A program made the translations under genes and the position numbers. Under the pieces are notes generated by a model. It was not told where the DNA came from. It was given only the letters and a program-made list of their open reading frames with translations, and made no database searches. Below, one piece after another: positions 21,811 to 23,275 of a DNA stretch of 59,737 bases. The stretch comes from Syntrophaceae bacterium (lineage in GTDB: Bacteria > Desulfobacterota > BSN033 > UBA1163), in NCBI GenBank assembly GCA_013388635.1, contig JACAEX010000011.1:1-59737 (forward strand). Direction: 5' to 3'. Positions within the stretch are counted from its first letter, which is position 1; each line of letters begins with the position of its first letter.

Positions 21811-23004
21811 CTATCTGGGACGCATCCCATACTTTTCGCCCACCTCTTTGAAGCCGGGGAGCGCTCCTTCGATGACCTTCTTTTCAACGCAGTAAGCAAT
21901 CCTGAAGTAACCCGGTTTACCGAAACCCCTGCCCGGGACGGTCAGGATACGTTTCGATTGGAGCTCTTTTACAAAGGCCAGGTCATCCTCAATCGGGGCC
22001 TTTGGAAAGAGGTAGAAGGCACCTTGAGGTTTGACAACCTGGTAGCCGAAGGCTGTCAGAGAGTCGTAGAAGAGGTTGCGTTTCTCCTCATAATCCTTGA
22101 TATTGACCGAATTCCTCTGGAGGGGTGCAACCAGCCTCTGCATCAGTGCCGGGGCATTGACAAAGCCAAGGATCCGGTTGGCAAAAACGAGGGCTGAAAT
22201 CAGCTCATCAGTTCCTTCGCAGAGCGGACTGACTGCGACATAACCGATTCTCTCTCCGGGAAGGGAGAGGTCTTTGGAATGGGAAGTCACCCGGAGTGTA
22301 TGGGGATAGTGGTGAAAAATGATCGGAGGCTCAACGTGATCATAGACGATTCGCCTGTAGGCCTCATCCGTAATGAGGTAAAGGGTCTTTTTCAGCTCAC
22401 GGTTTTTCATCTTCAGGATCTCGCCCAACCTTTTAAGGGACGAATCATCGTAGATCACCCCGGTTGGATTGTTGGGAAAGTTGATCAAAACGGCCTTGGT
22501 CTTCTCTCCAGTTGCCCTTTCGATCTCGGTCAGGTCTAAAGAGAAGTCTTCCCGGGTCGGTACGAGCCGGATACGGCCGCCATTGTTCTCGATGTAAAAT
22601 TTGAACTCCATAAAATAGGGTGATGGGACGATCACCTCATCCCCTTCGTCTAAGATAGCCTTTAAGATTACATTGAGTCCGCCCGCTGCTCCGACTGTCA
22701 TGACCACATGCTTCTCCTCAAAGGGAAGCCCGGACTCCTCTGCGAGATACTGGGCGATGGCTCTCCTTGTTTCGCTGTACCCGCTGTTCGGCATATAGCG
22801 GTGCATCCCGGCGATGGGGTTATCGGCAAGGTCTTTAAGAGCCTTCTTCAAGGAGGCAGGAGGTTCCAGGTTCGGGTTGCCAAGGGAGAAGTCGAAGACA
22901 TTCTCCTCGCCATGAATCTTCTTTAATTCCTCCCCTTCCTCAAACATCCTTCTCACCCACGAGGCGCCGTTCAAGGACTCCTTCACCCTCTTTGAAATAG
23001 CCAT
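21811..23004 (-). CDS. Class I/II PLP aminotransferase
   Basis: A 397-residue fold-type I aminotransferase of the aspartate aminotransferase superfamily. Seen: SLGNPNLEPP near the N-terminus, the cofactor region VGAAGGLNVILKA, FPNNPTGVIYDD, the Tyr in TDEAYRRIVYD, the PLP lysine in SHSKDLSLPGERIGY and the carboxylate-binding Arg in GYFRIAYC. Substrate cannot be assigned; aspartate, alanine or aromatic acids are all possible. AAAGGAG precedes the ATG. The gene is preceded by a long leader with two terminators (23069-23275), so its expression is probably controlled by transcription attenuation. Confidence 0.9.
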   Translation of the reverse strand: MAISKRVKESLNGASWVRRMFEEGEELKKIHGEENVFDFSLGNPNLEPPASLKKALKDLADNPIAGMHRYMPNSGYSETRRAIAQYLAEESGLPFEEKHVVMTVGAAGGLNVILKAILDEGDEVIVPSPYFMEFKFYIENNGGRIRLVPTREDFSLDLTEIERATGEKTKAVLINFPNNPTGVIYDDSSLKRLGEILKMKNRELKKTLYLITDEAYRRIVYDHVEPPIIFHHYPHTLRVTSHSKDLSLPGERIGYVAVSPLCEGTDELISALVFANRILGFVNAPALMQRLVAPLQRNSVNIKDYEEKRNLFYDSLTAFGYQVVKPQGAFYLFPKAPIEDDLAFVKELQSKRILTVPGRGFGKPGYFRIAYCVEKKVIEGALPGFKEVGEKYGMRPR

Positions 23005-23068: not shown

Positions 23069-23100
23069 AAAAAAAAGGCCATAGGGTTGCCCCTATGGCC
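23069..23100 (-). terminator. Intrinsic terminator 2 in the aminotransferase leader
   Basis: On the minus strand a 10-bp stem (GGCCATAGGG with CCCTATGGCC, 23077-23100, four-base loop) is followed by eight T (23076-23069). It lies 65 bp before the aminotransferase start, pointing into the gene. Confidence 0.85.
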
Positions 23101-23108
23101 CTTAGAAT

Positions 23109-23144
23109 AAAAAAGCCATGGGGCTGATCAGGTCACCCATGGCT
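23109..23144 (-). terminator. Intrinsic terminator 1 in the aminotransferase leader
   Basis: On the minus strand AGCCATGGG (23144-23136) pairs with CCCATGGCT (23122-23114) around a 13-base loop, followed by a T-rich run (23114-23109). Its first arm overlaps the competing pseudoknot helix by three bases. Confidence 0.75.
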
Positions 23145-23246
23145 CCTCATCCCATATAGGGATCGGCTCTAAGGGTGACCCCTGCCGAAATAAAAATAAA
23201 AGAAATAAAAGCTAAAAAATCTTCCCATGGCCTTACCTTGCGTATA

Positions 23247-23275
23247 TATAAAACACATCCGACCGGAGTTGTCAA
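23247..23275 (-). promoter_or_regulatory. Sigma-70-type promoter for the aminotransferase leader
   Basis: On the minus strand TTGACA (23275-23270) and TTTATA (23252-23247) are separated by 17 bp; transcription should start near 23240. Confidence 0.75.

Follow-up and report, generated by a model that had tools for sequence, protein, structure and literature searches.

A probable Phe- and Tyr-responsive attenuator with two terminators upstream of an aminotransferase gene

The aminotransferase gene examined here is preceded by a leader that is very probably a ribosome-mediated transcription attenuator, which would sense the supply of charged Phe- and Tyr-tRNA and control the gene. Both lie in a stretch of DNA of 59,737 nucleotides, which as a whole we call the window (Table 1). 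The leader carries what characterizes this class of attenuator: an ORF with codons for the end product, an intrinsic terminator before the gene, and a conserved antiterminator exclusive with that terminator. An earlier note on this DNA had proposed a new riboswitch or attenuator. The attenuator part of that proposal stands, but the riboswitch part does not, the sensor being in our reading a ribosome that translates a Phe/Tyr-rich leader. The 19-codon Phe/Tyr-rich ORF had been overlooked in that note, and it is by these codons that the element can be explained.

In the proposed mechanism, RNA polymerase would transcribe the leader ORF, ten codons of which specify Phe or Tyr. When both amino acids are abundant, the ribosome would reach the stop codon and cover arm 1, which lies within the final codons of the ORF; arms 2 and 3 would then form terminator 1, arms 4 and 5 would form terminator 2, and transcription would end. 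When charged Phe- or Tyr-tRNA is short, the ribosome would stall on the aromatic codons, so that arms 1 and 2 pair and terminator 1 does not form; we infer both this ribosome occupancy and this direction of the switch. Arm 3, once freed, may pair with the emerging arm 4 before arm 5 exists, which would disarm terminator 2 and allow the gene to be transcribed.

Table 1 Features of the leader in the window, and related leaders and loci elsewhere. Columns give feature, position or locus, strand, description and basis.
Feature	Position or locus	Strand	Description	Basis
Putative promoter	23247..23275	-	TTGACA (23275-23270), 17 nt, TG-T-TTTATA (-10-like hexamer 23252-23247)	direct reading
Shine-Dalgarno-like site	23236..23239	-	AAGG, 7 nt 5' of leader ATG	sequence
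Leader peptide ORF	23169..23228	-	MGRFFSFYFFYFYFGRGHP*, 19 codons, Phe/Tyr 10/19 residues; ATG GGA AGA TTT TTT AGC TTT TAT TTC TTT TAT TTT TAT TTC GGC AGG GGT CAC CCT TAG	runs of aromatic codons far more marked than in shuffles; frame free of internal stops
Arm 1	23173..23180	-	GGTCACCC, antiterminator 5' strand, codons Gly-His-Pro just 5' of stop codon	covariation with arm 2; swap tests
Small hairpin	23149..23163	-	ATCCC/GGGAT, between arms 1 and 2	sequence and alignment
Arm 2	23131..23138	-	GGGTGACC, antiterminator 3' strand, overlaps terminator 1 5' strand	covariation, swap tests
Terminator 1	23109..23143	-	GCCATGGG (23143-23136), loop, CCCATGGC (23122-23115), U6 (23114-23109)	kept in 43/43 aminotransferase leaders
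Arm 3	23123-23115	-	CCCCATGGC, terminator 1 3' strand
Terminator 2	23069..23100	-	GGCCATAGGG (23100-23091), GCAA loop, CCCTATGGCC (23086-23077), U8 (23076-23069)	in 40/43 leaders
Arm 4	23099-23090	-	GCCATAGGGG, terminator 2 5' strand
Arm 5	23086-23078	-	CCCTATGGC, terminator 2 3' strand
Aminotransferase gene	21811..23004	-	class I/II, PRK06836 family; putatively the regulated gene	NF005305 E 3.5e-169, above its cut-off; Pfam PF00155
Tandem aminotransferase duplicates	G045:C1, G082:C11, G169:C69, G216:C8, G258:C156, G278:C7, G333:C29, G386:C23		families f26, f56
Leaders without Shine-Dalgarno	L086, L091, L093, L097, L099, L101, L105, L106, L120, L123, L131, L140		family f56, 5' of aminotransferase
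ADH synthase leader, window's genome	L268:401-512 (G000:C92:1338-1449)		MDQLRILNSGSGFNFYWFYFSRVYPLLRADH (..FNFYWFYF..), 5' of ADH synthase/3-dehydroquinate synthase II
trpD leader, window's genome	L329 near 1501-1635 (G000:C39:9731-9865)		MRYYWWYWEKIGREVCPVPF, 5' of trpD
F/Y/W leaders			5' of DAHP synthase and ADH synthase
W-run leaders			5' of trpE, trpB-like genes, DAHP synthase-trp clusters
L leaders			5' of leuA
I/V/L leaders			5' of acetolactate synthase
F leaders			5' of phenylacetate-CoA ligase and MBL-fold protein
F/Y leaders			5' of periplasmic binding proteins

Leader ORF and terminators at the aminotransferase gene

The promoter described in the earlier note is present as a putative minus-strand element, and TTGAC[A/T] stands at the matching place in nearly all relatives. 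The leader in the window folds with -72.1 kcal/mol (z = -5.1 versus shuffles, with 0 of 200 shuffles as good), and terminator 2 begins 14 nt 3' of the terminator 1 stem. A consensus terminator scan detected terminator 2 only, and the terminator count in the region was at chance level. We regard both terminators as real because they are conserved in 40 homologous leaders, which bears out the two consecutive terminators of the earlier note, including the perfect 10-bp stem and U8 of the second. A pairing of GGCCATGGG, around the leader start codon, with terminator 1 was seen in one fold and discarded, as it is not conserved in relatives.

Throughout the family to which the window belongs, similar DNA lies 5' of the orthologous aminotransferase. 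To assemble a wider leader set, 395 genomes of the phylum were searched with the protein and the upstream regions were then read; the sequences are mostly metagenome assemblies, and relatedness among them inflates counts. In all, 43 loci from eight families of this phylum carry the element 5' of the orthologous aminotransferase. The relatives that have names are assemblies of Deltaproteobacteria, Syntrophaceae and Thermodesulfobacteriota, and we infer that the phylum is Desulfobacterota. Two terminators, 12-23 nt apart and with a single ORF 5' of both, are found in 40 of the 43 leaders, the other three having no recognised terminator 2. The ORF is rich in aromatic codons in 42 leaders; in the remaining one the contig stops before the ORF is reached. 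Peptide ends vary by family (..GHP*, ..AHPCP*, ..LHPGIxLL*) while the arrangement is constant, and the small hairpin between arms 1 and 2 occurs in most leaders of the window's family and is missing from some families. Among the upstream regions examined, none had conserved twin terminators without an aromatic ORF, and no such leader ORF lies 5' of the named enzyme relatives in Firmicutes and Chloroflexi.

Because members of the set were recognised partly by their aromatic ORF, it is the coding tests that carry the weight. Across the 42 leaders, Phe, Tyr and Trp make up 326 of 840 codons; aromatic runs comprised 300 aromatic codons, compared with 159 +/- 7 in base shuffles, and frame 0 has no internal stop, versus 26 and 61 in frames 1 and 2. 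Sequence differences in the runs between members of the window's family fall mainly at the third codon position (154, versus 71 at the second and 11 at the first), where T and C are the only bases, such that family differences in the ORF are mostly synonymous third-position T/C changes. Of the 16 complete leader ORFs in this family, 15 have a Shine-Dalgarno-like site upstream. In family f56, at the 12 leaders listed in Table 1, 2-10 nt (mostly 6-10) separate the -10 box from the leader start codon, and there is no Shine-Dalgarno sequence; because the start codon adjoins the -10 box in this way, the leader-peptide mRNAs of f56 are probably leaderless.

The PRK06836 family does not give a substrate for the aminotransferase, and the closest solved structure, 3ele, is an unnamed aminotransferase. 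Read from the leader codons, the substrate is probably aromatic (Phe/Tyr), and the enzyme is probably the one that completes Phe/Tyr synthesis. The window's genome encodes further class I/II aminotransferases, which resemble aspartate, histidinol-phosphate and LL-diaminopimelate enzymes. Tandem duplicates of the aminotransferase gene stand behind one attenuator in families f26 and f56. On the other side of the window's leader, a divergent elongation factor G gene (TIGR00484; 23303-25465, + strand) uses the same intergenic region, with a TTGACA-17-TAGTAT promoter-like site on its side.

Antiterminator helix and the second terminator

Arms 1 and 2 of the window are perfect complements that form an 8-bp helix overlapping the 5' strand of terminator 1; the earlier note had seen this helix and its competition with the first terminator, and in relatives it covaries. 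The arms pair in 91.5% of cells (26 distinct arm pairs), and both sides have changed in 6 of 9 pairs. The covariation score was reached by 0 of 500 shuffles and collapsed in slid-partner controls. Swapping arms between families cost the helix about 5 kcal/mol, and of 40,320 ways to arrange the families the arms' own combination came out best (4 of 5040 when the test was made with seven families). When we folded 39 leaders, the mean probability of terminator 1 was 0.99 with a ribosome placed at the stop codon and 0.32 with arm 1 free, the latter dropping to 0.04 after emergence of arm 4. The antiterminator is thus predicted to be mutually exclusive with terminator 1, its 5' arm being reachable by a ribosome at the stop codon.

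This helix was one half of the H-type pseudoknot in the earlier note; the other half, CGGC:GCCG, can be drawn in the window, where both segments occur, but is absent in relatives. That both pseudoknot helices fit the one sequence, and that no Rfam family claims the element, would suit a ligand-binding riboswitch with a pseudoknot aptamer. Such a riboswitch is extremely unlikely given the loss of CGGC:GCCG, the coding constraint on the leader ORF and the nature of the conserved sequence, which otherwise consists of codons and terminator arms, without a conserved unpaired core. The lack of a match to a known riboswitch class, as reported in the earlier note, was borne out in Rfam: there was no match in the window, the leader gave only weak sub-threshold matches to unrelated families, and at 16 related loci no attenuator was matched, known amino-acid leader families included. 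Matches of the leader to suhB and to the Moco motif fell below gathering scores and are explained by the terminator hairpins. We consider it very unlikely, too, that an independent small RNA ends at the terminators while the aminotransferase is transcribed from its own promoter. Such an RNA would fit the promoter-like start, the pair of strong terminators and a weak match to a promoter (9/12, 23070-23043) between terminator 2 and the gene, but promoter-like matches in this region are at chance level, and the element always lies 5' of, and in the same orientation as, the aminotransferase or a gene whose pathway fits the leader codons.

A further feature is that arm 3, the 3' strand of terminator 1, can pair with arm 4, the 5' strand of terminator 2, the two sequences being complementary. 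We think it reasonably likely that the leaders are five-arm 'domino' attenuators, a class spread over the phylum, in which a single stalled ribosome would flip both terminators (off, 2:3 and 4:5; on, 1:2 and 3:4). In the family swap test, the arms' own 3:4 combination was the best of 5040 arrangements and stayed best after dropping any one family, while the control pairings 2:5 and 1:4 gave p values of 0.22 and 0.92 (all permutation p-values here being single-test values, with several pairings tried). In a larger set that included other genes, 3:4 reached p = 0.0008 and 2:5 p = 0.24 with 14 clusters; with finer clustering both were significant (z of -7.8 and -6.0 for 3:4, versus -4.8 and -2.4 for 2:5), and with five clusters neither was. 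In the 39 folded leaders, the mean 3:4 probability with arm 1 free and arm 4 emerged was 0.88 versus 0.27. At equilibrium, arm 4 is won back by terminator 2 in most leaders, so any disarming of terminator 2 would have to depend on co-transcriptional kinetics. We therefore did not take equilibrium folding as proof of coupling. The conserved GGGG of terminator 2 in the window's family was likewise set aside as proof of 3:4 pairing, since a GNRA-like tetraloop in terminator 2 explains it equally well.

That same re-formation of terminator 2, with a mean probability of 0.69 even with arm 1 free, agrees with a reading in which the attenuator holds but terminator 2 is an unswitched fail-safe, its likeness to terminator 1 reflecting common origin or the constraints on a good terminator. 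Both stems have a near-palindromic CCATGG core, which makes all arms partly interchangeable, and 2:5 gives some signal at fine clustering. We give this reading tentative credence, as a possibility on the doubtful side. An unconditional and fully effective terminator 2 would, however, shut off expression always, and a 3:4 signal without a 2:5 signal in the 5040 family arrangements counts against tandem duplication of terminator 1, because duplication should give both. The 3:4 helix also exceeds 2:5 in stability in 78 of 99 elements, which as related sequences are non-independent, and three leaders (L274, L278 and L288) have a mismatch in terminator 2 but none in the 3:4 core.

Related leaders at other amino-acid genes

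The covariance search in related genomes that the earlier note had suggested was positive and placed the element in a phylum-wide set at amino-acid genes. Our model was built on the twin-terminator region and found matches in at least 165 of 395 genomes of the phylum (E <= 0.01, weak matches included and the number of candidates taken from each genome capped), compared with marginal matches in 2 of 22 control genomes of enzyme relatives from other phyla. Because the model selects for two terminators, the frequency of the second can be read only from the aminotransferase set. Of 60 further matches examined, L282 and L299 were set aside as having no convincing leader ORF; in most others the leader ORF suits the pathway of the downstream gene (Table 1), the target genes having been identified in some cases by tests and in others by resemblance. 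In 58 elements, a permutation test gave z = -14 for the pairing of arm 1 with the terminator 1 of its own leader. The window's genome itself holds two more twin-terminator leaders, upstream of the ADH synthase and trpD genes. Together with the coupled-terminator reading, and with the same moderate confidence, we propose that Desulfobacterota-like bacteria re-use the five-arm scheme with other codons at genes for aromatic, leucine and isoleucine/valine synthesis and for transport.

Some targets lie outside the named biosynthetic enzymes. Phenylacetate-CoA ligase (PaaK) genes at L304 and L319 have Phe-type leader ORFs and twin terminators, and may respond to aromatic amino-acid supply. Phe-rich leaders of the type seen at the aminotransferase (..FFFFFVFTRAHPCP, ..FFFFTFRRGSLMPL) precede MBL-fold proteins at L276 and L315, which looks like re-use of the attenuator for another gene. 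Three periplasmic binding protein genes with F/Y-rich leaders (L272, L310 and L313) are annotated by general fold alone; their products are candidate aromatic amino-acid importers.

Comparison with known attenuators

Ribosome-mediated attenuation is a textbook mechanism class, and the E. coli pheA leader (pheL) follows a four-region scheme with one terminator. The element shares with pheL a Phe-rich leader peptide, a stall that would select an antiterminator over an intrinsic terminator, and an amino-acid biosynthesis target; it differs in having two terminators, both Phe and Tyr codons, another gene, another phylum and no match to an Rfam leader family. The pheA operon is listed among attenuated operons, and the his operon attenuator has an extra hairpin (PMC1183508). 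Like the element, the latter forms a longer chain of alternating hairpins from leader peptide to terminator, but in his the last hairpin alone terminates, whereas each of the two 'off'-state hairpins of the element resembles a terminator.

Two attenuation steps within one leader are known from Salmonella mgtCBR, where tandem attenuators have two leader ORFs that sense different signals independently (PMC3641672); the element instead has one ORF before its two closely spaced terminators. In the rimP-leader, a second, tandem terminator occurs in some Gammaproteobacteria, with a possible antiterminator (PMC2965389); tandem terminators and a possible antiterminator are thus shared, whereas the gene and the stem motif differ, and the part of the rimP-leader description considered here mentions no amino-acid leader peptide. 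The uORFC-13-1 motif, found 5' of aroF in Acholeplasma and unidentified organisms, likewise combines a Phe-codon uORF with a terminator before a DAHP synthase gene and has been proposed to act by attenuation, but has one adjacent terminator stem rather than two (PMC8632094). The open-access literature searched yielded no account of a single leader peptide followed by two neighbouring terminators that may be linked, and none of attenuators of this phylum.

The leaders represent a distinct attenuator design across another phylum; there are dozens of them, and Rfam matches none of those that were tested. Their codons predict substrates for poorly annotated proteins, including the PRK06836 aminotransferase, PaaK-like ligases, periplasmic binding proteins and the MBL-fold protein. 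If the terminators are coupled, the textbook four-arm scheme would be extended, and tighter or more switch-like control by linked serial terminators becomes testable: two linked stops in series would cut leakage and sharpen the response.
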